A DNA stretch of 64,000 nt, taken from Bryum argenteum (taxonomy: Eukaryota; Streptophyta; Bryopsida; Bryales; Bryaceae). Below the pieces are notes generated by a model that was given only the letters and a program-made list of their open reading frames with translations, did not search any database and was not told the DNA's origin. The position numbers were made by a program, and so were the translations under genes. Of the stretch, positions 7,496-38,500 are shown piece after piece (position 1 is the stretch's first letter; each line of letters begins with the position of its first letter). The stretch is taken from contig CM073326.1 in assembly GCA_037043015.1 (NCBI GenBank), forward strand, positions 4,499,845 through 4,563,844, written 5' to 3'.

Positions 7496-9149
7496 GGAGA
7501 ATGTGTAGCCACGTGTCTGCGTCTGTGGAGGTACAGATGGGGCATGTCTTTGATGGGAACCTGATATTTCCGAAGAATAGTTGTTTCCTTGCGTGGCCCA
7601 TGTATTGACCGGTGCGAAATTTTAGTATGCTCGTAATTTGTGAGTCTGTGATTGTTGGGTTGGTCCAAAAGGCATTGGAAGATGTAGCATGGATATTCGG
7701 GTTAGATGTCCATTTATTTATGTTAGGGAAGTTTTGGGCTAATATTGTAAGATTGGTGTCACGGTCATGTTTGGCAAGATATGTGGCGAGGTTTCTAACT
7801 GGGCCTTTATCAAGTCTGTGATGTGGTCCGGGCCATGTATCCTTTTGATAGTAGAAGGGGGTGGTGTGTGCGTATTCGTAGAATTTGTGGGCGAATTTGT
7901 AGTTTTTGTCGTTTCCTTCTTTTGCGAGTTTGTCAGCTTTTTCATTACCAGAAATGTTTACGTGTGCGCGTACTTTGTAAAATGTGGTTGGATGTATTCT
8001 GTTTTGTAGCATGGTAGTAATAGCAATAAGTGTGTTTTGGTCTGGGTGATTGTGATGAAGAGTGGGGTGTGATATTTGTGTTTGGAGAAGGTATAGACAG
8101 TTGACACAATCGGTGAATATATTAGCGGGTTCATTCATGTATGTTGTAGTAAGGATTTTCAGTGTTTTGTGTATGGCGAGAAGTTCTGCTCGAAAGACGG
8201 TTTGAAGGCCCGGGAGTCTTTTGGAGATTTGAATATCCGGTTTGGTTGGGTTGTATATACCATAACCAGCGGTCTCTGGGAGCCAATGCCCGTCGGCTGT
8301 TTCTTTGGGAGGTGTGAAGGAACCGTCTGTGTAATAACTATGTTGGGGAGCGACTTTAAGAGGGTACTGTGTGTAGTATTGTGGGAGTGGGGGAATGTTG
8401 AGGAAGTTGTGTGTGTATACTGGGGGATAAAGTATTTTTGTCCAATTCTTGTTTTTGTTGACTGTGGTGTTAGGAGGCGTGGGAGGAATGACTTGGAGGT
8501 GGAATTGTGAGATGGATAGGTGTTTGAGTGTAGTTTCTAGATTTTGTATATAAGGTGTAGGGGTAATGTTTTGGGTTTTATGATGGATGTAGAGGATTAG
8601 GAGCGTATTTGGTTCGGAGCGAGGTTTTTTGTGTGTGGTAGGAATGGTGGGTTCTTCGTAGGTGATTGTGTCAGCGGTAAAGTGGGCAAGAATGTGAGTG
8701 TCTGGGAACTCGGTTGAGTATGGTGTTGGGTTGTGGAACCATTGGTTGTCGGGCATAACAATTATGGTCATGGTGTTGTGGTCTTGTTTGGCGGCTAATC
8801 TTGCCCAGTGTATGGTTTGTTGAGTGGTTTCATCATTGTAAGGGTGGGCGTATCCTATCCCTTGCCATTTATGTTGAAAGGCGGTGCCAATGGAGCCAAA
8901 AATTTTGTCATGGGGAAATGCGGAGTAATACTTAGTGAATTGAAGAGGACACGTTACTGGGGAGGAGAAATATGAGTGGGTAATTTGGAAAGAGGTGATA
9001 AGTGTGTCAATTATGGATGTTGGAAGCGTGTGGTGTTTTGTTGTGGTGGGATTGCGTTTGGAGAGTGTGTGGTTGTAGCGTTTATATAGCCAGATGATTT
9101 CTGTTTCGAATGATTGGGGGGGAGGAACTAACGCGGTGTGCATATTCAA
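7496..9149 (-). pseudogene. LINE ORF2, RNase H domain and following region
   Basis: Minus-strand continuation of ORF2. RNase H motifs appear in order: YYTDGSF (first catalytic Asp), FRAELLAIH (Glu), NIFTDCVNCLYLL (Asp) and KVRAHVNISGNEKADKLAKEG (HxxxxGNxxAD). All four catalytic acidic positions look preserved. Downstream are FRTGQYMGHARKQLF and CPICTSTDADTWLHIL, a CxxC..H type motif common after RNase H in LINEs. The frame ends in a stop provided by the MITE inserted at 7492. Upstream (9150-9530) the reading frame is broken, so I mark it as pseudogene although this block itself is open. Confidence 0.85.
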
Positions 9150-14417: not shown

Positions 14418-14445
14418 AACACACAATTAAACAATTGTGCACTTG
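14418..14445 (+). repeat. Left terminal inverted repeat of the 11.8-kb transposon
   Basis: Starts aacacacaattaaacaattg and ends gtgcacttg; pairs with 26189-26216. Further gtgcactt copies follow at about 14457 and 14482, likely transposase-binding subterminal repeats. Confidence 0.8.
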
Positions 14446-14871
14446 TACGTATAAAAGTGCACTTATGTAAGTACTCTCTAGTGTGCACTTCGAAACCCAA
14501 ATATATGGCTTGGAGAATGGGTTTTTTGATAAAAAATTCCACCAGTTTAAAATCATATAGTTTTTGTAGAATAATGCATGTTAGAGAATAAATAGTTTTA
14601 CCCAATGTCCTCAAGAATGATTTGTAATATTTGTCAGTTAATATGGTGACGTCTTACTTGCGACATGAGACATAGTACCCGGAAAATAATGAACATGATA
14701 CATTTGTAGATATATTTGTAGATACAAATATGGGTGTTACCCCAATCCTTGTAATCATTTCTAACTCTACGTCTACCACTATACCTTCACTGGATACATT
14801 TAACTTGTTCATACATAAACACTTCATATCAATTACCAAACAAGCCAAGGTAAATGTACTAGGATCATAAC

Positions 14872-17505
14872 CTACTCATTGGTATTTAAGGCTGCTTGTA
14901 AGCGTTCGTCGTCAATAGCTTCCGTTTGCATGGCTATATATTCCAGAATGTGTGCCTTTGTGGATTGAGGAATACGAACTCTCCTCTCTACCTGCACTCC
15001 GTGTACTATGCGCTTCTCCGACGGTTGAACGACATTCACCGATACGCGTTGTTCGTCAAACCATGAAAAAATACACGCCTCTTTCGGTACCCAACTGTGC
15101 CTCTCACCGGATGGCTCCCACAAGGACTCCATGCAATTTGCATAGCGTTGTGTAGTGGACCCCGGTTCTTCAACGACGCCATCTCTCATAATGGGGCAAT
15201 ACCAACATACTTTAATCTTTAACCTCCATGAGTTTTTCCCCTCTTCAATCACCTTTCCTAGGTAAAAGGGTATGCCTGCTTCTACCTCCTCTCGAACAAC
15301 ACTCAGCGCAACAAATTGACCAGTATTGATGTCCATCTCAGGATTGAACGATGGAAACGGATCGTTGCTACCTCCTTCTTTGTCTCGTACGGAGATTTCT
15401 TCAGTGACGCAATGTCGACTAGTTCGTCGTGCAGTATGCACTGCTTGATTTGATGGTCTCTCCTTTCGTGGTCCAAAGTATCCACGAGCCTCTGCATTCG
15501 GGAGCATGTCCACAATCTGATCCACAACGGTTCTCTCGCGATTTTCAGCAGTAGTATTTTCGCTCGGTATCGAGGATAAGCATCCCGAAGGTTCTACGTT
15601 GGATGCATAGGATGGCCAAAACGCTGATGACTCGTGATTGGCGATGCGGTCCTTTTTTGGAAACTCTGCTAAATATTGTTTCAACCTTTGTGCCTCATGT
15701 TTTGCATCACGGTTGACTTCCACGTATTGCAATCTTTGAATACACCTATCCTTGTATGCAATAAAATCGTCTAACGCCTTGAGCTCCCGCTCATCCGCTG
15801 CATATACAGTCGCAAAATCGGGGCGTTCGAACCTATTCGGGATAGATCTCAGAGTTTGATCTCCTCTCTCCGGTCCCCAAGCATCCTTGCAATAGTGCTT
15901 ATGTTGGACCTTGACGTTACAAGCACCGTCCCGATTGCTAGAATAGAATCTCATGTGGTGTGGAAATGTGATGCCAACCAATGAATCCGATCCCGTCAAT
16001 AATGTGCTCACGACTTGATTGCTATCATGCTTGTGGTGAGCTCCGAACCACACATCACAGTACAATCCAATCCCATGCACCAAGGCCCCGCATAGATGGG
16101 TCTTTACAAACCGATGCTCGATATTCTTGACAGTCTGACGTATTCGGGGTACCATGGTTGTATTCTGATCCATGCCATCTACTATAATACACATGTACAT
16201 CTCAGGGTTGATATAACAAGACCTCTTGAATATCCAATAATGTCTACGTTCCTCCATTTGATTGAGCAGATGTAACATGAACACCTCTTTAATCCTTATC
16301 TTGGCATCGGCATTGGTTGTCCCTTCCATGGCACATTTGTACTCCCAGCAGTGATAACATTTTGAAAACCTAGAGAACGGGGGTACTTGGACATGGGAAT
16401 ACCTTAGCCGCCACATCCTCCGGAATGAGCTCATGGATATCGTTTCGCCGTTGCAAATTCTCTTCACCTCCTCGTTCACGTAGTTGAATACATCAGATTT
16501 TACTGTATTCACGGGAAGAAGAATAAGCGGCAAGACCTCGTTGTCACTCTTGCGACGAATGGATCGGTGGGGTTGAGGACAACCGGCTTCATCTACGAAG
16601 CACTTAAAGCAAGCCTCGGCAGCAGACATTCTGATACTCTCTCTAACTGGATCTGAAAGGGTATTACCGTGAACAGCTGTCACTCTGCCATATATCAAAC
16701 AATCTTTCTTCAAGTCCTTGAAACGCCGTTGTGAATATCCAACCGCTACAGCGTAGCACGCATTGCAAACCTCTTTGCCGTCCAACTTTGTCACAAACTT
16801 ATCTCTACGATTTCCATCGGTTTGTGTATAGAACGAAACCAACATCTGCCTCACCCATGTACTCCGAATTGTATACTTAGACCCCCATGCATTGTACCGC
16901 ACGTCCAAGATATACCTTGCTGGAATATCTATTAAGCAATTTCTCTTGCATCCACCTTTTGCTATTGCATCTTGCACGCTTATCAAATTTACCTTTGCTT
17001 GTGCACCATCACCTGGTCTTCTCTCCCTTGCGACTCGCCTTGTCCTATTCTGCATAGAATACCGTCGGCGCGTTTGTCTTACAAATGCCAACCCATCAAC
17101 ATGTGGTAGATCTCGGATGTTGTCAGAAGGAGGTTGGGAAAATGGTGAATTTTCATGTACGGGATTTGAGGCTTGGCTACTTCTTCGTGATGTCGCATTG
17201 GAGCCCGGTGTGTGAAACTCCTCATCGAAATCAAATATCGGAGTCATCATCGGTACATTTGGCGTTTGAGATCCCTCTTCACTTCGTGCGTTTAATATAT
17301 TGGAATCCATAGCCACTATACGTACCAAGGAGCAGTCCCAACGAATTGTCGCTCCCCTAGACAATTCTAAACGTTCTCCAACCACATCTCCAGTCCAGTG
17401 TAATTCGTCAACTACATGAGTGACACGTACTGCAACCTCGGAGGGAAACAATCTCATTCCGTTCAATTCCATGCCACTTTTGAATGCATTGTCCATAATC
17501 GCCAT
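14872..17505 (-). CDS. Transposon protein with DUF7869-like core (putative transposase)
   Basis: 877 codons from the first ATG at 17505; the frame is open six codons further but without ATG, and a possible splice acceptor (ggtggtag) sits just upstream, so a 5' exon is possible. Around residue 265-285 is VCNACYAVAVGYSQRRF. Near 430 is CYHCWEYKC. At about 490-560 is IIVDGMDQNTTMVPRIR, then HLCGALVHGIGLYCDVWF and HHKHDSNQVVSTLL. The series DGMDQ..T, H.(T/C)GA.VHG and HDSN..V..LL is the signature I know from the uncharacterised DUF7869 family of eukaryotic repeat-borne proteins; its Asp residues could form a DDE-type site, which is inference. A basic NLS-like patch (RQTRRRYSMQNRTRRVARERR) lies near residue 150. 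The C-terminal 200 residues are unrecognised. Confidence 0.7.
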   Translation of the reverse strand: MAIMDNAFKSGMELNGMRLFPSEVAVRVTHVVDELHWTGDVVGERLELSRGATIRWDCSLVRIVAMDSNILNARSEEGSQTPNVPMMTPIFDFDEEFHTPGSNATSRRSSQASNPVHENSPFSQPPSDNIRDLPHVDGLAFVRQTRRRYSMQNRTRRVARERRPGDGAQAKVNLISVQDAIAKGGCKRNCLIDIPARYILDVRYNAWGSKYTIRSTWVRQMLVSFYTQTDGNRRDKFVTKLDGKEVCNACYAVAVGYSQRRFKDLKKDCLIYGRVTAVHGNTLSDPVRESIRMSAAEACFKCFVDEAGCPQPHRSIRRKSDNEVLPLILLPVNTVKSDVFNYVNEEVKRICNGETISMSSFRRMWRLRYSHVQVPPFSRFSKCYHCWEYKCAMEGTTNADAKIRIKEVFMLHLLNQMEERRHYWIFKRSCYINPEMYMCIIVDGMDQNTTMVPRIRQTVKNIEHRFVKTHLCGALVHGIGLYCDVWFGAHHKHDSNQVVSTLLTGSDSLVGITFPHHMRFYSSNRDGACNVKVQHKHYCKDAWGPERGDQTLRSIPNRFERPDFATVYAADERELKALDDFIAYKDRCIQRLQYVEVNRDAKHEAQRLKQYLAEFPKKDRIANHESSAFWPSYASNVEPSGCLSSIPSENTTAENRERTVVDQIVDMLPNAEARGYFGPRKERPSNQAVHTARRTSRHCVTEEISVRDKEGGSNDPFPSFNPEMDINTGQFVALSVVREEVEAGIPFYLGKVIEEGKNSWRLKIKVCWYCPIMRDGVVEEPGSTTQRYANCMESLWEPSGERHSWVPKEACIFSWFDEQRVSVNVVQPSEKRIVHGVQVERRVRIPQSTKAHILEYIAMQTEAIDDERLQAALNTNE

Positions 17506-19064
17506 GCCTACCACCACACCCAAAGATTAGAAAGCAGTTCTACCCGACTATTTTGTTGAGATACACATATCTCAACTAATCCATCACGTAATTGTCTCGC
17601 TCGTGCCGCCCGTAGTAATCGTGAACCTATTGAGCTATTGAACGAGATATTACCTCCTTGGATGTCTCCGATTACAACATGACTTTCTATTGTATCGTTT
17701 TCCATCATAGCTGCTTTTGCTTGACTATGAACCTGATAATCAGAAAATAATAATAAAATGGTAAGAATTGGCTAACGTGGTGGTATATAAAATCTGTAAC
17801 AAGCTTGATTTTGGACCGACTACCATGTGTTCACCTTTCACTACAATCCTAATTATATTTTACATAGATTAAATTTATGTCAAAATTCCATCGTTTGCCA
17901 CTTAATGTAGTCACGTGTAATCCTAGTTATTTTAATTTTTGTAATTGAACTTCTAAGATAGAAAATTTGGTAGATCCGTGAAATTTATATAATTGTCACA
18001 ATGTATAGACATTATAAACATATAAAAGTACTTATTATTACTTACTATTATGATATAAACAAATCATGTTTATCCCAGTACCGGCAAATGAATTTTGTCC
18101 AACAGTTTCATATATGTCAATACCTATACTTTTACTTCCCATAAACCCCTAAACGACCAAATAGGAGTTTTAAACCACATCTTGTAGAAAGAAAGAAATT
18201 TATGAAAGACTTGAAGATCTCTGAGTTTTATGAAATAAGCCTTCATTTTGTTACCTTGTCGGACAATGTGTGAAAATGGTGTTTCATATTGAAGACAATA
18301 AATTATTTTTGGATATTTACAAATTAGGTAATATTTTCTACATGATGTTTTATGAAAAAACTGAATGTCAACAGGCATCCTTATCAAAACTTGCATACAT
18401 GCCGAATTGCATGTTACTCTTGACATTCTTCACTTCTTTTCAATTTAGAAATAAATTATATAATTTTTTTGTTTTTTTGTAGCATCTTGAAAAAGTTTGT
18501 ACGAATTGGATGTTTAAACATTGTGAAATTAAGTTTTATTTTTAGTGGATACAATATGATATACAAAAAAATCACACGGAAAATAAGGAGGTTTGCATCA
18601 CATTTTGTAATAGAAAAAAACAAAACCAAAAAACATTAAGATCTCTATGTTTCATTTGGAAGACAAGAAGTCTTTGTCCTAGCATGTCTGAAAATACACC
18701 TTTTTTAATTGAAAGAATCTATGTGACAAAGAGTTTCATAGCAAAAGCGTTTGAAATTTCACGCACTCCAAAAACCTGAGCGCACACCCCATTTTGAACT
18801 TTAATAGAGTTATAAAATAAAATTGAAAAACATTGTTTACTTTTATTGTAGTTATTTATTAACATGTATGATCGAAGATGATGAATTTGTGATCACTCCA
18901 TCTTATATTAGTATAGAAGAAGATTGTATGATTATATTTCCATATACTAGTTTCTCCTAAATATACGAGCTAGTTCAAAACCTAATCAATCTATTTTGTT
19001 GATGCTTCAAGAGGTGAGCATCATGACAATTTTTATTACAAACCCTACTTTTTAAAGAATGGGA

Positions 19065-19086
19065 GGGGTCTTAGGCCTAAGACCCC
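19065..19086. repeat. 22-bp perfect palindrome
   Basis: ggggtcttagg followed by its exact reverse complement. A degenerate version (ggttcttaggtctaagaccc) recurs at about 19139-19160. Located in the centre of the 11.8-kb transposon. Confidence 0.85.
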
Positions 19087-19679
19087 ATAGTAGTGATTAC
19101 CTTGTGATTACCTTAGAGTGGCTTTCTACACAAGGTCAGGGTTCTTAGGTCTAAGACCCCAAGGTCTTACTCCTCCGACTTCTACTGCAAGTTAACTTCT
19201 ACTGGGAGTTGACATCTACTGCGAGTTGTAAAAGGCAGCAAACATATGTACGTTCGAGCTCCTTCATGCTGGCACTCCTGCGCCTTGCAACGCGTCGGAG
19301 CTCACGAACTTTCTTTCTCCATTCTTCTACGCTTCTCCTTCTCGTTTTCCGCTCAGAGCTTCCTCCTGGAGCGTCGTTCTTTTGCAACTTTGGTAAGTAT
19401 GGAGGAGTGACAAGTTAAAGTTGTGCAATCTCTATGCCTCTACGCCTTGTGCAGGGTCTGCGTTTGCCGTGTGATGCGCATGCGCCACTGCTGGTAAATG
19501 CGCTTGTTTGTTGTGTGCGCCAGTGCGCACGTCCTTCGTTGTGCTCTGTGGAAGTGAAGTCCATGTGCGTCTGCTGTGCGGGGAAGTCTATGCGTCTGCC
19601 GTGCGGGGAAGTCTGTGCGTCGGACCATCAGTCAGCCGGTTTGTGTCTGCGCCGGTGCGCTAGTTCTGCTTGGGGTGAA

Positions 19680-19980
19680 GGGGGGGTATCTATTGCGGCA
19701 GTCTGCTTGAGGGAGGGGGTAGTTCTGCGTGGGGGTAGTAGGCTGCTTGGGGGGTAGAAACAACTGGGGGGGGGTAGAGCCGCTTGGAGGGAGGGTAGGT
19801 ACATTTGGGGGGGTAGGGTAATTGCAGGGAGGGTAGGGTGCTTGGGGGTGTAGAGGGTACATTTAGAGGGGTAGAGTACATTTGGGGGGGTAGGGGGGGG
19901 GGGGGTAGGGGCCAGGGGGGGGTAGGGGGTGCTTGGGGGTAGGGCTACTTTGGGGGTAGTAATGCTTGAAGGAGGGGTAG
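19680..19980 (+). repeat. G-tract array with G-quadruplex potential
   Basis: About 300 bp of runs of three to thirteen G separated mostly by tagggt, gcttg and acattt spacers. Imperfect repeats of a unit like gggtag..gcttgggg are visible. Many consecutive G-runs on the plus strand could fold as quadruplexes; this is inference from composition. Confidence 0.7.
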
Positions 19981-20032
19981 GGGATCTCTGGTCACTGCCA
20001 TCTGGCACAATTTTGTGTCGTGGGGTGGTGCA

Positions 20033-20164
20033 GTCTGAGGCCTCGGACCCCTTTTCGGGGGCAATCTGCTTTGGGGAAGTCTTTGGGAGGGTCTACGGAC
20101 GGTGCAGGTGGCCCGATCTTAAATCGTAGGGGGTGTGTGCGCCTCGAGGTCCGAGGCCTCAGAC
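20033..20164. repeat. 16-bp inverted repeat flanking a 100-bp GC-rich spacer
   Basis: gtctgaggcctcggac at 20033-20048 and its exact reverse complement at 20149-20164; each arm contains the palindrome gaggcctc. Both arms are followed by ccccttt, so the right arm is also part of a local direct similarity. Confidence 0.8.
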
Positions 20165-20515
20165 CCCTTTCCAAGCCCAAACCTCCTACGGAAACTGCCT
20201 CCGTTCAAATATTATTTGATGTGCACATTTTGAGCATAATCACCAAGATTTGAAGTACGCTTTGAACTTTCTGCACTTTTAAGTGATTCAGCTACTAAGT
20301 AAACTATTTTCTTCACTACGCGTTTCATTGATACTTGAGGATTGTCAAATTACCAATTCACATGGTGCCTTTAGTACTCATGTGCTTTCACTTGTCTTGT
20401 AGGCAGTCTTTGACATGACTAATTGTCATAATGTTTAAGTGATTACGTAGGTTTCAGCTTGAATAACAAATAACACATCACGGTGCTTGATCTGCGGAAA
20501 CTCAATATGAGTACG

Positions 20516-20727
20516 CTAAATAGGTAGATTAGTGTTAGATACACTAATTTATATGAACATGTTATAAGTTTTTACTGTTGGTCAATATTTTACCCTCTAC
20601 ATCCGTCAAGATGTGGATCCTTCAAGAGTATTGGAGTCAATACTATTGGTAATATTTTTTTACCAGAAGTAAAAACTTATAGCAATTTCAAATCTTATAA
20701 AAATCTAACACTAATCTACCTATTTAG
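20516..20727. repeat. 212-bp inverted-repeat (foldback) sequence
   Basis: A perfect 25-bp inverted repeat starting ctaaataggtagattag at 20516-20540 pairs with 20703-20727. Inner segments also pair (ttataagtttttact with agtaaaaacttata; tattttacc with ggtaatat). It may be a small MITE nested in the transposon or a structured upstream region of the 21510 gene. No clear target duplication was found. Confidence 0.7.
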
Positions 20728-21509
20728 TCTAGTGAATGACATGTTTGAACATGTGTAAGTTCTGAAATTACAGAACGAGCTCAGAATCAAAGCCTTCACC
20801 ATGAGCTATTTTTGTACTCAAAGTAAATTGTATGTGTACTGTCTTGGAGGAATCAATGTGTGCAATATTGTTAACTCCTCTTACTACATGATAAAACTAT
20901 CTATTCAAATATCATCTAACGTGTAGCGTAACTTCATGTAAACCATAAGAAATTTTATAAGAAATAATGTAGATTGAGATGAGAGAGAATGTAACCTGGT
21001 TTTGTGGAGTTATAATTACGTTCGCAAAGCTTTGATAATAGAAAAGTTACAAGAATGAGGGTGTTTCTCTTTTTCTATCTTATAAGATTTATACCAAATA
21101 GTTGTGCTTGCAAAAGTATGAGAGCTTAGAGTCATTTGAAGCATTACCAAAGAACTTAAGGTCTGATAGATAGATCATACAAACCAAATAGGTAGATTTT
21201 ATTACACTCTTATAGTGCTTTTTCACAAGGTAGGATGAAATTTGTTGAGTGGGAACAAAGCCAATGGTCAAGATCTTATTGAAGTATTGACTATTATTTT
21301 GGTCAAAGAGTTTGAAACATGTAAATATATAAATAATAAAATATATATTGGGAATGTTTGAGCTCCTGTGTTTGCACAAGTTTTTTTAATATGCTACACG
21401 TAGTCTCTATCTTTGAAAATAAACATGTACGTATGACAAAACTCAAGATTTTGATTGTTTTGATTGTTGTGTATGTTCTACTTCAGGTTTGAGTTTCGAG
21501 GACTGCATC

Positions 21510-24500
21510 ATGGAAGAGACTGTTTCTCGAATGCCGTGGCTTCAGCATGGTTGGTGGTTGACTGTGGGAGATTCCAACAAAGTGATATTATGGATTACAA
21601 TTTATCCTATCATCGAGGGACATCACGCAACAACATTAGGGAAGAGGTTTGGCGAGGTCATTACCATACGAACCCTTCCTTCGCACAAGATATACATCAC
21701 GTGCAAATCGGAATCCGGTTGTGAATTAGAGCCAACATTACTCTCGAAAAGGTTGGTTTTTAAACCGGTTCCGGCAATACTGTTGAAGACGCCACGGTTG
21801 CTGAATCACATTGATGCGGTCCAGAGGGGTTGGACATCTACACATCCGGACGTGCGTGTTGCTCGGCGGAAGAATGTTGATGCATGTATGAGACTATCAC
21901 AGGAGCAGAGAATGCTTCTCACGAGGCTCATGAAGGATCATACAGAGTTTGAGGCATTAAAAGCGGTGAACCCGGTTCAAGCAGCCAGCCAAGGAGCTCC
22001 GGCAGTGCCAAGTGAGGACGATCCTATTTTTCGAGTATTTGCAAAGCCGCACGTCTTGGATCATAGGCCATTATCAGATTCAAGTATTCCTGCAACAAGT
22101 TTGCAGGAAGCGTCTCAAGAACAGCCGGTGGCATGGGTTGCTAATGTTGAAGGAAGTCTTCGTTCGACGATTGCTGAAGGACGTGGTCGCCCTTCAAAGC
22201 GGGCTAGGGGTGCCTCTCAAAATATAGCGTCTACTTCCCATAATCAGCCAACTGCCTCTAATGCCGCTATTGACAGGTCGTTTGGAAGGAATCCATCACT
22301 GCGTGGAGGAAGGAGCCGAATGACAGGTCGTGGCGAGAATGCTGTTGAAGGTGGGAGGCCTCGGTTGGTAGTTGTACCAAATGCAACCCTTGGAGGTTCG
22401 GTTGGAAGAGGATCAACAAGCCGGGTACGTCGGGTCTCTCGTACGGGCCGAAGTTCATCTCGAAGTCAGCAAACGCCTTCAACATCAACAGCAGGAGCTT
22501 CAGTGCACATATCACCAGTGGATGATGAGTCACTGTACTATTCAGATGAAGCTGCCAATGGAGAAGAGAGAGATGGAAATATTATCACCGGTGTTGCACC
22601 ACTCCGTTTTGTGAATGCTCCCGTGCCGACAAGAGCCGATATTGCAAAAGGATCTTTATGGGGAGAAATTGAGTTCTATGCCCATATTGATAATATTATT
22701 GCGCCGAGGAATCCTGATACAAACCACCGTTTGTTATCGGAGAAAAGGGTGGGAGAAGTTTATAACATGCTACACGATCATCTCAGGAGGAATGAAGTGG
22801 CCAAACTAGTACTTCGTCCGGTGAAATACATTATCCATGAGACATTGGATGATGGTCAAGTTCAGATGGAGCAAGTGTCATTTCCGACCGAAGGTACTGC
22901 AAAGGAGTTCACACGAGTATATAACTTGTATGCTCCCACATCAGGACACGACAGCGAGGCTTCTAAGATCACGTGGCTGCAGAGGCACATCATCTGGGAG
23001 CCTGTCGATGGTCAACATGTTGTAGCTGCCTGTAAACTCGCACAGGAGCATTACAAGACAGGGAAGCTCAACCGATTTGAGTACGAATCTACTTTCATGA
23101 AGCGGATGTCCTCCTTTGTAGTTTTTGATGATCCGATCATATACATTTTGAAGTCAGTACGACTCAACATGGCGGCTCATACGGGGAAACACCTTTCTAC
23201 AATGTCCCAAGATCTGAAAAAGCTTCGAGAGATATGGGAATACTACGGAAGGCCAAATAGTTTGATTCGCGCGGACGACGCTCGGAGAGCACGAGCTTTG
23301 GTGGCTGCAGCTAGCGCTGTCCAGAGAATACCCAAAGATGATGAAATTGTCACTATGAAGACGTTGGCATCTAGGTTGGTGAACTTGACGCATCAGGCTT
23401 GGAATCCAAGTGACGAATGTTTTGAAGGTATTCTTCAGGTATGCAAGGACTATGAGAATGGCTTCTTGTTTCATAGCAAGGGTGATGAGACTAGATGGAA
23501 AGAGTTGGCTCAGAAGAAGGACCTTGATGTTACTGTGGATACACGGCCAAATCGATTACGCATGACTCCTCAATGGTTTAAACCATTGACTAGGATTCCA
23601 GATTCTTTATACTTAGGTATTATAAAGTCGTGTGCAGCAAAAACTGTACGACCGGATGGTATTAGGCCCTCTCAAAAATATTATTTTGATGGAGTTGAAG
23701 TAAAGGATCCGAAGTCCCACACTCTTTCCGGTGCGGTGGAGCGGATCATGAGCAGAGAGGCGGTCAAGAATATGATTCGGTATTTGATGGTGGAGAATGG
23801 AGCAGCGTCACCAAGATCCATGGAGGAGTTTTTTGTCTTATCAGTATCAAAGTATTTTCCCGGGGGACTAGAGCAACTCCAAGATTTTGGCACGTTACTG
23901 AGTTCGATTATGAAGACTAAGTGGGCCGCTCCAGAAGTAAAGAATGTGTCTGAACTTGACGATATACGCGACCTCATTCCTGCAATCATCAGCAACCATT
24001 TTGAAGATGTTGGACAAGGGGGGGTTGGCTACTATACCCCACCTGTACCCGAAGATCTATTGAGCGCACAAATTTGGGAGTGGAAGATGAATCTCAAGTT
24101 ACCAGGCGATAATGCTGCAGACACTCTTCTTGTTCGATATAGGAGAGGGCTATTCCGTCGAGATACTGTCTTACTCAAGCAGTCATACCTATGGGTTATA
24201 GATTGTCGCCGTGGTGGAGGTCGATACGGAGACGGTGTCTGGTCTGATGACCAGTACGTGAAAATCATTGAGCAATTGAAGTTATGGATGTCAAACATCG
24301 ACCGATGGAATGTCGTGTTTTTGCTTCCGCCTGGTGTATACTACACGGCGGAAATGTTGGTGAAGTTGAAGCTTCCGGTGGATTGCTCTTATCTACGCGG
24401 ATGTTGGAGCTTCCGATATACTCCAAAGGATTATCCACAGAACATCAAAGAGGCCAACTCTTTTATTCAGGCGGTGGAAGCTACCGGCGATGTTCTTATT

Positions 24501-25640
24501 TACCTACATCATCCCAGCAATTCAACAGCCAAGTTGAATATTGTAGCTTCAACCGTACCACTTCCTCTTGTGTTCCACGACCGTCGTGGAAATCCCAGAA
24601 AGCCAGTTGAAGCCGATCCTCTCGAGAGATCTCCAATAGAGTTGGCGAGGTTGGTCGAAGCATACATGCCTCATGGTTGGGGTTTAGTGGCATGTAACAT
24701 CGGAACTGCCATCCCAACAATATTGACGTCAACATTCAAGGGAAACGACGTCATTGTCATTGACGATTGTAGCAAGAGGGATTCATTTCTTCATGATGAG
24801 TTATCACAAAAGTTGGGAGGCCAACTTGTAATCCCAATAAGAGTTGCAATGTCTCCGAGACATCGGGCTGGTGATGGGGCAACAAGTGAGGGTGATCCAA
24901 TGGCTCGAGCGCATGACAATACGGAATCTGAGTACGAACGGTTAGGTTTCAACATAAGAAGGCCACAGGACCATACACCGGCATCCTCTAGTTCTGAAGA
25001 TGAAGTGTCTCCCGCATCAAGTGGCGGTCATGAAAATGATGAAGAAGTGGCAACAAAAGAGGGAGACGAAGGGGCCGATTTTACGGTATCGGAATACGAT
25101 TCAGTACCAGAACCGGAACCTGAAGGACCGCCGACTGAACTTCATACATCGTCTGTTGTTCCATCAACACCGCAATTTGAGGTTGTAGCAACTGAGAGGA
25201 CACTACAAATGGGGACGGATGGCGAAGAGACTATAGAAGACGACAACAGAGTTTCAGAGACCCAAGAAGATGATCATTCTATAGGGATGGAAGGCGGAGA
25301 TCATACTCTTCATCATTTTCACGTCATGCAGAGATTGGTTGAAAGGTCGTCTGGAGAGAATCCAATGGAGCAAGGATCTATGATGGATGGCGAACACGAC
25401 GGTATCCAGTCAACTAGCGGTCCCTCTTTCAAAGAAATCTTTGGTTCAGGATATTCGTTCAGAGATGGCTTCTACTTTGATGCAGATGGAATAAGGCACG
25501 TAAGGAGAGGAGAGTCCGGTAACTATACATATGAACAACACACAACCGTTGGCACATCAGCCGGATCAGTGCCCGATGAATTGGTGGATGCTATGGTAGA
25601 GAACGCAATGAGCCACGCGACTGGCCTTTCATCTATGTAG
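21510..25640 (+). CDS. Transposon protein with a DNA-methyltransferase-like fold, catalytic motifs missing
   Basis: 1376 codons from the first ATG; the frame is open a little upstream, and a good splice acceptor (ctacttcag) at 21478-21486 suggests a 5' exon. Residues ~235-340 are Ser/Arg/Gly-rich and basic; residues ~1130-1376 are acidic and low-complexity. At about 890-1095 the order of elements resembles N6/N4-type DNA methyltransferases: YLWVIDCRRGGG where the family has D-P-P-Y, then WSDDQYVKIIEQL, VVFLLPPG, and ERSPIELARLVEAYMPHGWG followed by VACNIGTAIPTIL and NDVIVIDD where the family has DxFxGxGTT and FIGIE. The DPPY and FxGxG residues are replaced, so catalysis is unlikely. The fold assignment is inference from pattern. 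Its pairing with the DUF7869-like gene inside one element suggests a structural or DNA-binding role in transposition or silencing evasion. Confidence 0.6.
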   Translation: MEETVSRMPWLQHGWWLTVGDSNKVILWITIYPIIEGHHATTLGKRFGEVITIRTLPSHKIYITCKSESGCELEPTLLSKRLVFKPVPAILLKTPRLLNHIDAVQRGWTSTHPDVRVARRKNVDACMRLSQEQRMLLTRLMKDHTEFEALKAVNPVQAASQGAPAVPSEDDPIFRVFAKPHVLDHRPLSDSSIPATSLQEASQEQPVAWVANVEGSLRSTIAEGRGRPSKRARGASQNIASTSHNQPTASNAAIDRSFGRNPSLRGGRSRMTGRGENAVEGGRPRLVVVPNATLGGSVGRGSTSRVRRVSRTGRSSSRSQQTPSTSTAGASVHISPVDDESLYYSDEAANGEERDGNIITGVAPLRFVNAPVPTRADIAKGSLWGEIEFYAHIDNIIAPRNPDTNHRLLSEKRVGEVYNMLHDHLRRNEVAKLVLRPVKYIIHETLDDGQVQMEQVSFPTEGTAKEFTRVYNLYAPTSGHDSEASKITWLQRHIIWEPVDGQHVVAACKLAQEHYKTGKLNRFEYESTFMKRMSSFVVFDDPIIYILKSVRLNMAAHTGKHLSTMSQDLKKLREIWEYYGRPNSLIRADDARRARALVAAASAVQRIPKDDEIVTMKTLASRLVNLTHQAWNPSDECFEGILQVCKDYENGFLFHSKGDETRWKELAQKKDLDVTVDTRPNRLRMTPQWFKPLTRIPDSLYLGIIKSCAAKTVRPDGIRPSQKYYFDGVEVKDPKSHTLSGAVERIMSREAVKNMIRYLMVENGAASPRSMEEFFVLSVSKYFPGGLEQLQDFGTLLSSIMKTKWAAPEVKNVSELDDIRDLIPAIISNHFEDVGQGGVGYYTPPVPEDLLSAQIWEWKMNLKLPGDNAADTLLVRYRRGLFRRDTVLLKQSYLWVIDCRRGGGRYGDGVWSDDQYVKIIEQLKLWMSNIDRWNVVFLLPPGVYYTAEMLVKLKLPVDCSYLRGCWSFRYTPKDYPQNIKEANSFIQAVEATGDVLIYLHHPSNSTAKLNIVASTVPLPLVFHDRRGNPRKPVEADPLERSPIELARLVEAYMPHGWGLVACNIGTAIPTILTSTFKGNDVIVIDDCSKRDSFLHDELSQKLGGQLVIPIRVAMSPRHRAGDGATSEGDPMARAHDNTESEYERLGFNIRRPQDHTPASSSSEDEVSPASSGGHENDEEVATKEGDEGADFTVSEYDSVPEPEPEGPPTELHTSSVVPSTPQFEVVATERTLQMGTDGEETIEDDNRVSETQEDDHSIGMEGGDHTLHHFHVMQRLVERSSGENPMEQGSMMDGEHDGIQSTSGPSFKEIFGSGYSFRDGFYFDADGIRHVRRGESGNYTYEQHTTVGTSAGSVPDELVDAMVENAMSHATGLSSM

Positions 25641-26188
25641 ATCAATATTCGGATCATTGTGTTAGAGGTGTGCATTTGTTTGACACGGTAGAATATAGTA
25701 GAGTGATTGAAATGTTGGTTCTTATTTACGACATCAAGATTATTATCCAAATATTATATTTTGTTGATGTCTATGTTTCTTGTCAATTTTATTGTACATC
25801 GAGAGGTTGTACACTTTGAATATTGTTGACGTGTAGTAAACGAATCGTGTTGTCACTTCAAATCGAGATAATTTATGGTTTAATAAAAGTTTGAAATAAA
25901 TATTGTATGCACATTGAATGCAAATACGGACAAACAGTACGTGATTATTATTGTAGTTCTGTAGACCAAAATGTACTAGAATTAAAGTGATGATGTATGT
26001 TCATTGGATATATTATAACCACATAGTTTTCCAATAGCCGTGAAAATTCAAAAATGTCGGTTTATTATATTATAGATCTTCCAGTATAACTAGAATATAG
26101 AATCCTTTGCAAATTTCAATCTAGAAGATTCAAAAAATAAATTAGGTGGATAATTTTTTTTAATTGCATGCCAAAAAGTGCACTTGCC

Positions 26189-26216
26189 CAAGTGCGTAAT
26201 TGCTTAATTGCGTGTT
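26189..26216 (-). repeat. Right terminal inverted repeat of the 11.8-kb transposon
   Basis: Pairs with 14418-14445. Just inside it, aagtgcacttg and aagtgcg words mirror the left end. Confidence 0.8.
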
Positions 26217-26220
26217 GTAT

Positions 26221-28658
26221 GGGGAGATGGTTGCCGGAGATGGAACTTTGGTAATATTTCCCGGAGAATCATAATTTTGATGTATAAGTGTGAGGAGACC
26301 ACCACGAGCGGGGGTGTAGGACATTCTTTGTTGAATACATCTAGTAAGGGCATGTGTGTTGTTGAAGATGAGTTTGTATTGTGGAAGCATGCGTTGGATG
26401 TATTTTGTGGATTTATTAGCTGTAAGTTTGGTTTCTTGAATAGTAATGATTGCAGGAGAGTTTTCTATAAGTTTGTGGAGGCTTGGAAGGGCGGTGTTTA
26501 GTGAGGCTGCGTTCCACGTCGTGATGTGATTATTTTGTTGAGTTGTAATTTGAGGTTGTGGTGCAATAGAAGCGATGGGTGGCCGTGGGGGTGGATGTGA
26601 ATATTTGGGGAGTGTATCTTTGCATTTTAAGGATTCGATGAGTAATGCATCTGGGAGGTATGGAAATGCATTTTTGAGTGTATCTTGGTTGATAGGATTG
26701 TTGGATTCTAGGATATATTTATAGAGTTTTGTGTGTATGGTGTTAGATGGTTTAATGAGATGGTGGTGTGTGGTGAGGAATTGGGTGTATGGATGTGCGT
26801 GGTTTAAGTGTCTATCAGGGTTATTTGGTAATCGGGAAAGTGTGTTGAGTAGAGATGTTGTCCAATATGGATGTGGGTTGGATAATATATGTTGTTCGCA
26901 AAGTGGTAGATTTGGGCCAATAGTGGTGATTAGTGCGTATAAGAGGTGTGAGGGTGGAAAATGAGAATGGTTTTGTATGTAGCGTGTGAGACATGGGTGT
27001 ATTGTTGTACTTGTGTGGTGGTATGGATGATTGGGTTGGATTGTGGAAGAGAATATGGAAGCAAGATGGGTATATTCAGGATAGAGCATTATTGTACAGG
27101 GAATGAAATAGGTTCGGCTGCGTCTTCTATGTTGTGCCGGATGGGCGTGTAGGATGTTTGGCATAGGACCTGGGTTGGATTCTATGTCACCACAAAGGAG
27201 CAAGAATATTTGATTAGGGACAAATTTACTTGTAACTATTTTGGCTTTTGGTTTGGATAAGTGTGTGTGCGTGTAGAGGTAAAATCGAAAGGTGATGTGA
27301 GAGTTAAGGTTAGGCATGGGAGGTTCTAGGTGTGCTAGAAAGTGACTTGTTACTAGGTGTAAGAATTTTGGATGGGATATGATTTCTGTGATGTGTTGAA
27401 GAAATAGGTTTATGAGGTTTGTGTGTGTTATGTAGATATTTTGATGGGATGTTTGTGAGTGTTGTGGGTTTGGTGTGCTAAAGTTTTTGGATTGAATGTG
27501 TGGTGTGGAGAGGCATGTGTCAAGAGGAGGAGGGGTATTTGGATTAGAGTGTTTGTATGGTAAGATATATAGATAAGTGCATCGATCCTTTCGAAAGGGG
27601 CAAGTGTGAATGAAGTGTCCGTTTGTTATGCTAGTGACCTGATTCTCATTTGGGCAAGAGGAATTTGGAGTATTACTAATGACTTCCATAGTAGGGCAAA
27701 AGAAGGGATTTTGGATGTTGGTGGGGCAGTAATTTTGGGGAGTTTTGGGGGTGTGGGGAGGCCAGGTATGGGAATGAGGGGGGGTTTTGGACTTTACTGG
27801 GGGGATGGGGTGGGTATATGATAGGGAAGAGGTCCGGGTATATACTGGGGGGAGGGGCTGGACAATTGAGGTAGAGAGGGACCGGGTATATACTTGGGGT
27901 AGGAGCCGGGTATACGAGGGGGAGGGGGTCCAGGAGTCTGGGAGGGGTCGGGTATAGGTATGTGGTAGGTTCGAGAGGTGTATCGTTGAGTTGGGCCGGA
28001 GTACGGGTATTGGAGCAGATGTTGAGTGGGGCAGTTGGGTATGATAAAGAAGGTTTTCGAGGATAGGCACCGTGGGTGGCTTCTTTGAGAAGCTTAGCCA
28101 AGGGGTATAGAAACCAAAGGAGCCTATGTACTTGTGCGGCGAGGAAGGCTGCCTGCGGGCGCGATGTCTATGGGTGCAAATTAAAAGTCTAGAGAGAGGT
28201 GTGGGCGTTGCGGCAAAGGGTTCATCGCTGTGGTGTACTCTTTGCGAGAACCAGATGGGGTAGTTTGAGCAGAGGAGTATTGAGGTTGAAACTATATGAA
28301 GAGCGCAGGGGTACTGGGCGTTATGTGTGATGGGAGACTGAAAGTGAAGAGTTGTTGTGGGTAGGATGCTCAGAGAAGGAGAAGTAATTGGTAGGTAGGG
28401 AGGGACCATAGAGGAGAGAAGTGCTGGGTCTTTACTTGTATGAGTGTGTTGAACTCGTAATGCATGAGGTAAGGGAGAAAGACACAAATATATCTGTGAG
28501 AGTGTAGAAAAGTTGAGTAAAAGTGCCATCCTAGGAATAATGTAATAGGTAGTAATGTGAAGCTTCGAGCCTACAAGCATCTGATGTGAAACCAGAAGGG
28601 GGAGAAAACATGCTAGCAAAAATAGGGTTGCTCTAAACATGTATGGTGTTTTACACAT
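26221..28658 (-). CDS. LINE ORF2, N-terminal part: leader, 2A motif and first half of APE endonuclease
   Basis: Start chosen at ATG 28658, which overlaps the ORF1 stop in the string ATGTGTAA; an alternative ATG at 28715 would overlap ORF1 by 65 nt, and the frame is open back to 28739 without ATG. Residues 1-26 are hydrophobic (MFRATLFLLACFLPLLV), like a signal peptide or anchor. Residues ~170-360 are Pro/Tyr/Thr/Ser-rich with repeated YTRPLP- and PPVYTR-like units. Residues 490-498 form a consensus 2A motif. The endonuclease begins near residue 735 (HITTWNAASLN) with IITIQETKL, supplying catalytic Asn and Glu. Sequence is cut by the transposon at 26220 (after ATISPY); the endonuclease continues at 14413. 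If 2A works, translation yields a ~497-residue leader protein and a separate APE-RT-RNase H protein starting with proline. Confidence 0.85.
27165..27191 (-). other. 2A ribosome-skipping motif in LINE ORF2
   Basis: Nine codons read GDIESNPGP, preceded by QIFLLLC. This matches the known 2A consensus D(V/I)ExNPG|P with the leucine-rich approach typical of 2A in non-LTR retrotransposons. It lies in frame between the low-complexity leader and the endonuclease. The expected break is between Gly497 and Pro498. Confidence 0.9.
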
Positions 28659-30756
28659 CAAAGGTGATGTTATCTGGAAGTGGAGGGTTTGCGGGTGGAC
28701 CCTCGGGTAGTCCATTGGTAAGTGCCGAGAAGATTCCACTCATGTGGTGACTATATTCACGTGAAGCTGATGTGAGCAGTTGAAGTTGATGTGCTAAATG
28801 AACCTGATGTTGTTGTTGCTGGGTGGTGACGTGTTCAATGCGTTCCGTGGTGTGATTGTTGATTGTGGTGCCGATAGAGTTGAGATGTGATTTGAGGCGA
28901 TTTTCAACTGCAAAGATGGAGTTCTCAATCTGGATCAAGGTTGGAGATGCAGTAGTCTCATTCTTGAAAGCGGTGAGGGCGTCAGCAATGACTTCTCGGG
29001 TAGGACGTTGATCTTGGATTTTGGCAGCGGCTTGTGGATTAGATCCTTTCAAACTGCGGGCATGCGGAGAAAAGTCAAGCAGTCTTCCTAGACAACGCAC
29101 TCCCTTGAGGTTGCACCATTGAGTGTACACTGCTGCGTTGAGACATCGAATCGTGGCAAGGCCGTCATGGCGATTCAGAGGGTCCCCTTCGGCTTGGTTG
29201 TAGTGGATGTTGATGACATTCTTGGGTCCAAGTAACTTGTGCAGTGCAGCGGTGATGGGTACCTGAGCAAGGTCCATAGGCAAGCCACGAACAACAATGG
29301 AGGTAGAAAGGGCCTCTGGGACATTAGTATGATTAGACCTATCTGTAGGGGGGAGTGTAACGCTTAGGCGAGCGTTACCAAAGTAGATGGGAGTGTCTAG
29401 GAGGTACTGTTTAGTTTTAGCAGATGCTAGAGTGATTTCTGCAAACTCAAGTTCCTTTGACTGTTTGGTAACTCTTACAAATTCAAGATTAGCCCCGGCA
29501 AGATAGCCATATCGAGTTAGTTCACCTAGCAGTTGTCTAGACGTGTAGTGTGCTAAACGTGGGCTTGTTAGTACTAATTTGCGGTTAGTAGCGGTAGAAG
29601 GAAAGTCAAATCCTTTCTCTATTTTACCAATGACATAGGAAGAATCATGGAGTTGTAGAGTGAAGATTCTTGAACCTTTGCGGAGTCCTATGCCGTCAAT
29701 ACTAGGGTTGAGAAGGTCCACCTTGAGGAAACCAAGCCAATTCTTGGTAACGGGGTGAACTATGGCTGTGACTGGTTTACGGAGTCTAGTGGCAAGAGGG
29801 ATGCCCATAGAGGCAAAACGAGCAATGGCCGCCTCTTGCACGTCATGCTTTTTCATCTCATGGTACCCATGGTCAAATCTTATAACAATTTGGTTAGTAT
29901 GACATAAACCTGTGTGGACGTCAACATCTAATCCATATGGGACTTGAGTTAAGTGTAAATACTGACCTGGGAGGCCGTCCGGACGCGCGCTAGGGTAAAG
30001 CAATTGTGGGACATGAGGGAAGGCATGACGGAGGGAGTGAAATTTAGAGAGTTCAGATTCTAGCATATCAAATGTTAGTAAATTAGACTCAGATGTGTCT
30101 AACCATTCAGGAAGGCCGCGCTGTATGTTCATCTGCTCATGGACTGAAAAGGTGAGCCAGAGCTTGTCAACATAATCAGCAAATGATGGTGGGTTAGTAG
30201 GAGTGAGAGTTATAGAAGTGCCTGGAATGGGAGCAGTACTAGGAATGAACAAAGGGCTAGATTGATGCGAGGCGATGTGATCTGAGGCTGTGCTGGCCGA
30301 AGGAACGTTAGCTGACTTTGGCCTCAACATATGGAGATTCTGTTGGTCTTGGATTGGTGCAGGCGGTGCATCAGCAACTTTGAGCGGTTGTTGGACACGC
30401 ACAGAGGTCATCTCTTGGTCAGTTGTGGCTGGGGTCCGGTATTGTTGGGAAGAGTGAGAGTCATGTTGTTCATGTTCCACGTCTCCATCGCTGTCGTTAG
30501 CGATCGTTTGCAGGCGGCGCTTCCGTTGTAATCGAGAAGAAGTAGGAATCGGTACAACTTGCTCTGGTTCAGGTGCACAGTCCTCTGGCCAGTCTCGGAT
30601 GGCGGTGGGTGCATCAATGGCGAGAGCATCCATACCTGCTGAAATTCTTTTCTTGCGTGAATGCGAAGAGCTGGAACGACTTGATTTGTCCGAGACAGAT
30701 CTTAGAGAGTCCTTGGAGCAAGTACTAGCACGTGCAATGCTTTTTGGGCGAGGCAT
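28651..30756 (-). CDS. LINE ORF1: RRM and coiled-coil nucleic-acid-binding protein
   Basis: 701 codons from ATG at 30756, chosen because the protein there becomes typical coding sequence (MPRPKSIARAS); the frame is open upstream to 31572 in low-complexity, repeat-derived sequence. Residues ~1-60 are basic and Ser-rich (SDKSSRSSSSHSRKKR), a likely nuclear signal. Around 485-565 is an RRM-like segment (SIVVRGLPMDL..., NINIHYNQ-like strand, GLATIRCLNAAVY). The C-terminal ~130 residues have a heptad-like and Gln/His-rich stretch (ENRLKSHLNSI, TTQQQQHQVHLAHQLQLL), probably a trimerising coiled coil. RRM plus coiled coil is the known ORF1 architecture of L1/I-type LINEs; no CCHC knuckle is visible. 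The stop overlaps the ORF2 start, suggesting termination-reinitiation. No disabling mutation in this ORF. Confidence 0.75.
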   Translation of the reverse strand: MPRPKSIARASTCSKDSLRSVSDKSSRSSSSHSRKKRISAGMDALAIDAPTAIRDWPEDCAPEPEQVVPIPTSSRLQRKRRLQTIANDSDGDVEHEQHDSHSSQQYRTPATTDQEMTSVRVQQPLKVADAPPAPIQDQQNLHMLRPKSANVPSASTASDHIASHQSSPLFIPSTAPIPGTSITLTPTNPPSFADYVDKLWLTFSVHEQMNIQRGLPEWLDTSESNLLTFDMLESELSKFHSLRHAFPHVPQLLYPSARPDGLPGQYLHLTQVPYGLDVDVHTGLCHTNQIVIRFDHGYHEMKKHDVQEAAIARFASMGIPLATRLRKPVTAIVHPVTKNWLGFLKVDLLNPSIDGIGLRKGSRIFTLQLHDSSYVIGKIEKGFDFPSTATNRKLVLTSPRLAHYTSRQLLGELTRYGYLAGANLEFVRVTKQSKELEFAEITLASAKTKQYLLDTPIYFGNARLSVTLPPTDRSNHTNVPEALSTSIVVRGLPMDLAQVPITAALHKLLGPKNVINIHYNQAEGDPLNRHDGLATIRCLNAAVYTQWCNLKGVRCLGRLLDFSPHARSLKGSNPQAAAKIQDQRPTREVIADALTAFKNETTASPTLIQIENSIFAVENRLKSHLNSIGTTINNHTTERIEHVTTQQQQHQVHLAHQLQLLTSASREYSHHMSGIFSALTNGLPEGPPANPPLPDNITFDV

Positions 30757-31215
30757 GGTGGCGGAATAGTGTACAATGTAAGCTGCAGAGAGAGGTAGTT
30801 GGAGTGAGCGTAAGTTCTTGACATACCAATCAGAATTAACAAATAAACAGCACGGTAAAACTGAATTGTTACGGAGGGTGAATGCGTACCTGAAATGTGT
30901 TTGTTGGCGGGTGAGTTTGGAGTGTGTATGGGGTTGGTATTTATAAGTGCAATGTTTGAGTATCATGTGGGTATCGCATGAGGTAGAGGTGAGCGGTGCT
31001 ACAGTTCTTGTGGGTCGAGTTTTTCTCCTTTTGCCGTCAGTGTGCCGAATTTGGTGGACAGGTGTGTTCTGGTTATTGGAGCTGAGAATTGATCGGGGTG
31101 GGGGTGTCGTGGCTATTGTCATGTGGTAGTGATTCATGGCTAGAAAAGTGGCAGCAGTGTGAGTGTAATGCGGTGGGTGCGAATGCATGGAGGTTTCGGT
31201 GGGAGGTGGATAAGA

Positions 31216-31359
31216 TGGATCGGGAATTATGGTGGTATTGTGGTGCGGTGTGGGTAGATGAGTTGGATCATGAATTTCGGGAGAAGTGCGGTGCGGTGTC
31301 AGTAGATGAGGTGGATCGTGAATTTCGGTGGAAGTGCGTTGCCGTGTGAGTTGGTGAGA
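31216..31359. repeat. 48-bp tandem repeat, three copies, in LINE 5' region
   Basis: Units start with tggatc at 31216, 31264 and 31312 and share gaattt..gg..gtgcggtg..gtagatgag. Copies have diverged by several bases. Confidence 0.75.
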
Positions 31360-31740
31360 CTGAGATCCGGAGAGATCGAGGGGGGGAGCGTGGTGGTGTT
31401 TGGGAGAGAGTCGAGTTACGGTGGACTGCTGGGGAGGAATGGGTGATGAAGTTCGAAGATGTGGTTTGCAGGTTGTGCGATGGGCATCTGAAGGTGGCGG
31501 GTGTATGATTATAGCAAGAAGGTCGAAATAGTGGGTACTGGCAGATTGCGAGTACAAGAATAGTATAGGCATATGGACGGAGTCACGGAGGTGGTAGTAG
31601 GAGTAGAAATGAAGTATATGTGTGGGATTAATCCGTTAATGGATATTGTAACCGCATGCTTTTTAATGTAATCATTATGATTATCTAATCGTGTGGATGA
31701 GTGGTGTTTGGCGTGTGATGATTGACTTGAATGGGTGTGG

Positions 31741-31860
31741 TTGTATGTAAAGAGTATTGGTTGTTTGTGTGTTATTTGAGCAAGTTTGACGTGGTGTATG
31801 GAGTGTGTAAAGAGTATTGGGTGTTTGTGTGTTATTTGAGCAAGTTTGACGTGATGTATG
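31741..31860. repeat. 60-bp tandem repeat, two copies, in LINE 5' region
   Basis: Two nearly identical 60-bp units at 31741-31800 and 31801-31860, each with gtaaagagtattgg and gtgttatttgagcaag; only a few substitutions between them. Confidence 0.85.
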
Positions 31861-31960
31861 GAGTGTGTATGTGGTAAGTGTAAAACATGTATGTGTGTAT
31901 CTATTCTGGGAAAGGCCAGCAGGTTTCCACAGTGATCAGTATTGGTGTATGGAAACTGTG

Positions 31961-32140
31961 ATTGAGTCGGTGTGATGTGTGAGGTAGATCGAGCATGAGT
32001 ATAATAGAAGGAAGCGTGTAATTGAGTTGGTGTGATGTATGAGGTAGTTTGAGCATGAGTATAATAGAAGGAAGCGTGTGATTGAGTCGGTGTGATGTGT
32101 GAAGTAGATCTAGCATGAGTATAATAGAAGGAAGCGTGTG
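31961..32140. repeat. 60-bp tandem repeat, three copies, in LINE 5' region
   Basis: Units begin attgagt at 31961, 32021 and 32081, each with tgtgatgt, gagcatgagtataatagaag and gaagcgtgt. Same period as the array at 31741, different sequence. Because 60 is divisible by 3 the minus strand reads as a 20-residue repeat. Confidence 0.88.
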
Positions 32141-32181
32141 ACTTATCTAGTACGAGGGTAGTCAAGATTACGAGGGCGTCT

Positions 32182-33063: not shown

Positions 33064-33065
33064 TA

Positions 33066-34691: not shown

Positions 34692-34693
34692 TA

Positions 34694-38397: not shown

Positions 38398-38500
38398 GTT
38401 CCAAATTATCCTTGTCCGGTGGCCATCAGGATATTAGCATTACGAACGGACACTTCATTCACGCCGACCCCTTAGAAAGAGACTGGAGTTTCTATCTATC
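38398..38500 (+). mobile_element. 103-bp 5'-truncated LINE copy (or SINE) with 13-bp target duplication
   Basis: Flanked by the exact direct repeat tggaaaacttaaa at 38385-38397 and 38501-38513. The body (ggtggccatcaggatattag, attacgaacggacac, ttcattcacgccgac) is closely similar to the reverse complement of the LINE 3' tail at about 5670-5765, and it ends in tctatctatc. This is either an extremely 5'-truncated insertion of the same LINE family or a SINE sharing its tail. Confidence 0.8.

Follow-up and report, generated by a model that had tools for sequence, protein, structure and literature searches.

Non-LTR retrotransposons that encode 2A peptides are known from the clades CR1, L2, Rex1, Crack, and Ingi, and those of animals tend to consist of a single open reading frame, without an ORF1. 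Among APE-type LINEs, 2A is known from animals and trypanosomes, as cited in the parts of PMC12846837 and PMC11512398 on which we draw here and below. In plants, StopGo functions in artificial constructs, and the plant-related text we drew on from that first source, a 2026 survey, finds no evidence that plant viruses use it naturally (PMC12846837). The 2A-bearing N-terminal signal sequences of sea-urchin NLR proteins are also reported to be active in plant cells (PMC4981915, in the sections used here). The literature searched, whose coverage was without Odon 2013, Luke 2014, and the systematic survey of Rao 2025, gave no earlier account of plant retrotransposons with a 2A.

The motif described here, GDIESNPGP, lies in a 64,000-nt stretch of the genome of the moss Bryum argenteum (the window, meaning the whole stretch that was analyzed). 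Judging from sequence, it is very probably the C-terminal core of a functional 2A (StopGo) within ORF2 of a moss family of APE-type non-LTR elements, where it would separate a leader from the endonuclease-reverse transcriptase (EN-RT) protein. As in the 2A LINEs of animals and trypanosomes, the motif is in frame in the EN-RT reading frame, upstream of the endonuclease, and has the strict form D(V/I)ExNPGP. Unlike those elements, the moss family has a land plant as its host, carries a PCIF1-like domain between the reverse transcriptase and RNase H, and at some loci has two in-frame 2A cores. It also differs from the single-ORF animal elements in keeping an ORF1 in 18 of 20 fetched loci of subfamily A (all but L011 and L020, as fetched); the structure without ORF1, a correlate of 2A LINEs and not a strict definition of them, is not the usual one in the moss family.

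Features of the 2A-bearing LINE and of the transposon nested in it (window coordinates)
Feature	Position	Strand	Remark
ORF1-like frame, 973 aa, without Pfam/NCBIfam match	28651..31572	-	homologues 5' of 2A in 18/20 subfamily A loci
ORF2 leader frame, open, fast evolving	27192..28739	-	overlaps end of ORF1 frame by 89 nt, +1 frame
Extended 2A tract, ...FVPNQIFLLLC-GDIESNPGP	27165..27266	-	~30 codons before NPGP; pN/pS windows
2A core GDIESNPGP	27165..27191	-	translation; predicted skip between G (27170-27168) and final P (27167-27165)
~213-aa region between 2A and EN, conserved among copies	26526..27167	-	would begin P-M-P-N after skipping
AP endonuclease, N-terminal part, cut at 26216/26217	26217..26525	-	weak TIGR00633 match
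Nested DNA transposon, ~11.8 kb, not LINE	14418..26216	.	TIR AACACRCAATTAARCAATT..., 4-bp TSD ATAC
EN remainder, Exo_endo_phos_2, E 3e-4, below curated cut-off	13985..14362	-	profile match
Reverse transcriptase domain, RVT_1, E 8e-28	12083..12874	-	profile match
PCIF1-like methyltransferase-fold domain, PF12237, E 2e-15	8742..9116	-	profile match
RNase H domain, E 1e-12	7914..8336	-	profile match

An 859-codon open frame on the minus strand (28739..26160) carries the motif, with NQIFLLLC before it and MPNILH after it in the translation. The initial annotation had read GDIESNPGP in frame in ORF2 after QIFLLLC, and minus-strand translation of 27191..27165 bears this out; its match to the 2A consensus likewise stands, since the peptide fits the core (D/G/C/N)(V/I)ExNPGP given in the part of PMC12846837 that defines it. 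Counted from stop to stop, the frame has its first ATG at residue 9 and the asparagine of NPGP at residue 522, which makes the earlier figure of about 490 codons after the likely start roughly right, the start being presumed. When the window was searched with the DNA pattern for D[VIM]ExNPGP, the only match was at 27166-27188 on the minus strand, and none of 100 dinucleotide shuffles contained one.

The identification of the element as a LINE was supported by the RVT_1 and RNase H domains downstream on the same strand and by another copy, L023, which holds leader, 2A, endonuclease, and reverse transcriptase in one frame. PDB matches of the window reverse transcriptase are restricted to R2-type and LINE-1 ORF2 proteins. 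For the region between the 2A and the endonuclease we obtained no Pfam match, and a single-sequence fold of the post-2A region was uninformative (mean pLDDT 37). The exonuclease III match that follows (TIGR00633, residues 739-795, E 9e-4) is far below the curated cut-off and starts about 215 residues after the 2A. Endonuclease models match better downstream of the 2A in the same frame of two other copies, so the position of the motif upstream of the endonuclease, as originally described, holds; in both L016 and L023 the AP endonuclease and the reverse transcriptase share the frame of the 2A.

The ORF2 frame exits the LINE at 26216, the edge of the nested transposon, and the remaining endonuclease, reverse transcriptase, PCIF1-like, and RNase H sequences resume beyond it, between 14413 and 7485 on the minus strand. 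The transposon has terminal inverted repeats of about 28 bp and frames of 883 aa (minus strand) and 1383 aa (plus strand), neither with a Pfam or NCBIfam match; its boundaries, inverted repeats, and target site duplication were read by eye from sequence comparison. Without this insertion, some 2.5 kb would separate the 2A from the reverse transcriptase in the window, in line with other copies. The closest fetched copy, L009, is 97.7% identical to that of the window over 5.1 kb. Because the inserted transposon splits the endonuclease, the window copy is dead and no intact protein is possible from it; the family is not dead.

The window has several other features. On the minus strand, tandem repeats with periods of 48 and 60 nt at 31197-32141 mark the 5' side of the LINE and extend over the beginning of the ORF1-like frame. 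A Tc1/mariner-like element at 33064-34693 has 29-bp inverted repeats (93%) around a DDE_3 transposase that is split over two frames. A 49-nt segment at 38425-38473 is 82% complementary to 27595-27643 of the LINE leader and is perhaps a fragment of an oppositely oriented copy. Farther along, at 46638-47234, lies a fragment of a GT47 exostosin gene (Pfam), whose PDB matches are only animal-type exostosins. Neither an Rfam nor a tRNA scan gave any match in the window.

The strict pattern GAY RTN GAR NNN AAY CCN GGN CC occurs 167 times in the 258.8 Mb assembly (89 forward, 78 reverse), whereas the reversed-pattern control occurs 0 times. Linkage of motif, family, RT, and PCIF1-like matches was counted on contigs C1-C4, for which the set of strict matches is complete. 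At least 80 of the 85 motif matches there fall at recognized family sites; the other five comprise two upstream members of tandem pairs, two with a reverse transcriptase approximately 2.5 and 3.5 kb downstream, and one less than 1 kb from a family match. Protein and family searches score about 145 to 150 candidates each, and their counts are lower bounds. Two protein searches gave 103 distinct family sites on these contigs, among the matches listed, of which 80 keep the strict motif and 23 (two of them inspected) do not; these counts favor keepers of the motif, since the queries themselves carried it. On the same contigs, 49 of the 69 RT matches listed are preceded on their own strand by a strict motif no more than 6 kb away. 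In 39 of these cases the distance is 2480-2531 bp, and 200 sets of shuffled positions put through the same test gave a mean of 0.165 and a maximum of 2. The remaining 20 divide into nine with a non-exact family site only and 11 with neither.

Seventeen of 20 loci fetched by rank have the strict motif, and the remaining three read GDIQSNPGP, GDIKSNPGP, and GDIES*PGP. All 10 of a set of small regions are strict as well, a result that is not independent because six of them were already among the genome-wide motif matches. Many long open frames surround the motif, the longest of 2941 aa in L023, where an open 2285-aa stretch takes in, all in a single frame, the leader, 2A, endonuclease, reverse transcriptase, and beginning of the PCIF1-like domain. 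One query for relatives in viral contigs returned eight pattern matches, none of which was confirmed.

PCIF1 (PF12237) is an m6Am methyltransferase family. The PCIF1-like domain of the moss LINE, between the reverse transcriptase and RNase H, is found at 150 or more scored places in the genome. On contigs C1-C4, among the matches listed, 44 of 69 RT matches have the domain within 5 kb downstream, and 44 of 72 PCIF1-like domains have an RT match upstream. At the position of the PCIF1 NPPF motif, AHPYN is found in the window copy and AHP in L023, which is cut off after these three residues. The domain may therefore be inactive, given AHPYN in place of NPPF in the window copy.

To describe selection on the peptide, we used 21 of the 24 subfamily A copies, having dropped L009, L027, and L028 (each with 95% identity or more to a copy that was retained). 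Rows were required to have the NPGP codons and a near-core, which left out L024, the one of the 20 ranked loci with a stop in the motif. The comparison of the nine motif codons across copies that the initial annotation had proposed gave a dN/dS of 0.06 and, over 43 sites, 28 DNA spellings for eight nonapeptides. Values are 0.07 at codons +4..+40, 0.17-0.30 further downstream, and 0.30 at -47..-19; on the 5' side of codon -47, in a poorly aligned part, they are 0.58-0.79. In the stretch -18..-6, pN is 0.149 and pS 0.746 (pN/pS 0.20), and the computed dN/dS of 0.04 depends on silent sites that are saturated.

Ten-codon windows of pN/pS across these copies follow the same course: 0.74-1.13 upstream of -50, 0.36-0.50 between -50 and -11, 0.15 at -10..-1, 0.05 at 0..9 (NPGPMPN[IV]LH), and at least 0.126 downstream. 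The window -20..-11 (0.36) is no lower than many downstream windows. Constraint on the peptide thus sets in some 50 codons before the motif and peaks at the motif itself, where the low pN/pS is partly built in, since rows were selected for the NPGP codons and a near-core; residues outside that selection, the G at -5 and M-P-N at +4..+6, are also fixed or nearly so. Pairwise differences among the 28 spellings number 389, 0, and 1793 at codon positions 1, 2, and 3. Because third positions vary freely, selection acts on the peptide and not on the RNA, and conservation at the RNA level is ruled out. Neutral-rate decay is likewise ruled out, by dN/dS, by the pN/pS windows, and by the many spellings of few nonapeptides. 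Copies lacking the motif, or degrading it at a neutral rate, had been named beforehand as evidence against a 2A; the opposite was found, in the number of strict matches, in their retention at most listed family sites, and in purifying selection.

The sequence around the motif belongs to one open reading frame, constrained on its downstream side; upstream it is open, with constraint reaching back some 50 codons. At 33 sites taken together, the ORF2 frame has 73 stops between codons -200 and -48, against 304 and 252 in the two alternative frames; between -120 and -48 it has 20, against 132 and 94. The leader is conserved over about its last 50 codons only, and since it is not conserved beyond codon -50, the leader protein may have no fixed function.

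These observations bear on a second reading, in which ORF2 would start near an ATG at codon -47 and give a hydrophobic leader of about 50 aa that ends in the 2A, so that skipping would decide between leader-bearing and leader-free ORF2 protein (dual targeting). Dual targeting is described for the sea-urchin NLR 2As, whose N-terminal signal sequences resemble the moss case in having a short hydrophobic tract that ends in 2A; unlike them, the moss 2A is internal to a long open frame and lies in a retrotransposon (PMC4981915, as far as its sections on these sequences go). The onset of constraint about 50 codons before the motif agrees with such a start, as does an ATG exactly at codon -47 in 14 of the 24 subfamily A sites. 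Against it, seven of the 24 have I, V, or L at that codon, among them L016 with its 1611-aa open frame, and three have an ATG at -39; none of the candidate start codons 5' of the 2A is conserved. Initiation only at the -47 ATG is weakened by its absence there in 10 of 24 sites, and the frame farther upstream (codons -120 to -48) is kept open. We regard a short N-terminal leader as possible but rather unlikely.

The sequence before the core takes several forms: FIPNFLFLLLCGDIESNPGP is typical of subfamily A, YHLTKCGDIETNPGP or HHLLKCGDIETNPGP of subfamily B, and HHIIALLLLCGDIETNPGP represents a third form. These different contexts (FLLLCG- in A, YHLTKCG- in B) share one core. The L-rich class of StopGo sequences ends in (A/S/C)G with D at p12 and S at p15, and an L-rich example is active in vitro (PMC12846837, in the part that sets out the classes). 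FLLLCG-DIESNPGP of subfamily A fits this class as compared by eye with the text of PMC12846837, having, like viral StopGo, the core octapeptide behind an L-rich upstream sequence with p12 = D and p15 = S; unlike viral StopGo, it lies in a chromosomal retrotransposon of a plant. Position p15 is S in 20 of the 24 subfamily A sites and T in subfamily B contexts such as YHLTKCG.

Six loci with pairs of strict cores were examined, and in each the two cores are spaced by a multiple of three (723-1536 nt, or 241-512 codons). Three of the six (L029, L032, and L035) have no stop between the cores, whereas 1, 5, and 10 stops lie there in the rest. More than one in-frame core is also found in those Paavivirinae picornaviruses that have multiple 2A-NPGP (PMC11512398, in the portion that treats them); unlike in these viruses, the moss cores are paired in some LINE loci only, at the spacings given and open between in half of the pairs. 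L029 (G000:C5:2173000-2179500) has two strict cores together with the degenerate CDDIETNLGP and GGDIEPNTGP, all within a frame that stays open for 2166 codons. The presence of four such cores suggests that the 5' end of ORF2 was duplicated more than once.

A third reading is that the motif is an ordinary structural or targeting element of the ORF2 protein that resembles a 2A and gives little or no skipping. Some retrotransposon 2A-like sequences have tested inactive. Conservation in the moss family runs on downstream of the core, through MPN[IV]LH and with dN/dS nearly as low over codons +4..+40 as at the motif, and the motif therefore borders on a part of the protein that is itself under constraint. 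However, the fixed residues are those of the StopGo core, the same core is kept behind different upstream contexts, and some loci have another in-frame core ahead of the main one. The L-rich context, moreover, matches a class with an example active in vitro (PMC12846837, same part). Taking these together, we consider an ordinary protein motif improbable.

We also weighed whether the element or its contig could come from an animal or fungal contaminant, given the 2A-bearing LINEs of animals and trypanosomes and the Tc1-like transposase that adjoins the element. Family copies are, however, present on each of contigs C1-C11, and the window lies on a contig of 20 Mb. Of the 25 contigs in the assembly, ten are longer than 16 Mb (C7 as judged from the positions of its matches), one measures 7.0 Mb, and one, of 114.6 kb, is the plastid, whose PsaB best matches PDB 8htu, 6l35, and 7ksq, which we take to be Physcomitrium structures; this bears out the plant host assumed for the LINE. 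The GT47 gene fragment in the window, moreover, presumably resembles the plant IRX10 type. Contamination is accordingly very improbable. Least credible of all is a chance match or a decayed, functionless relic, a reading that the disruption of the window copy by the nested transposon might invite and that stands against protein-level purifying selection and the many long open frames (up to that of L023), with chance itself excluded by the 167 matches against none in the reversed-pattern control and by the empty dinucleotide shuffles.

We return, then, to a functional 2A that separates leader and EN-RT protein as the most probable explanation of the motif. A ribosome that reached the end of ...FLLLCGDIESNPG would hold a nascent chain in its exit tunnel that blocks formation of the bond with the next proline. 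The leader would be released with a 2A tail, and translation would resume at that proline (P-M-P-N...) to yield a separate EN-RT-(PCIF1-like)-RNase H polypeptide. Some 25 residues are given as the extent of the sequence responsible for skipping (PMC11512398, in the text on 2A function). Both the activity and the efficiency of the moss sequence are predictions, as are the site at which ORF2 begins and any function of a released leader.

More tentatively, the moss lineage may use 2A as a modular device. The paired cores raise the possibility of duplicated cores giving polyproteins with two or more skip sites (leader-2A-accessory-2A-EN-RT) and a variable accessory leader, in elements that keep both ORF1 and the PCIF1-like domain. 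We hold this broader proposal to be somewhat less likely than not.

If the motif does function as predicted, it would be a case of natural StopGo use in plants, and the conserved, multi-copy chromosomal family in this moss would make that 2A the plants' own. Its members would offer native 2A sequences with an evolutionary history on plant ribosomes, together with a natural alignment of well over 100 sites from which to learn which 2A residues matter. The link in LINEs between having a 2A and lacking an ORF1 would then break.
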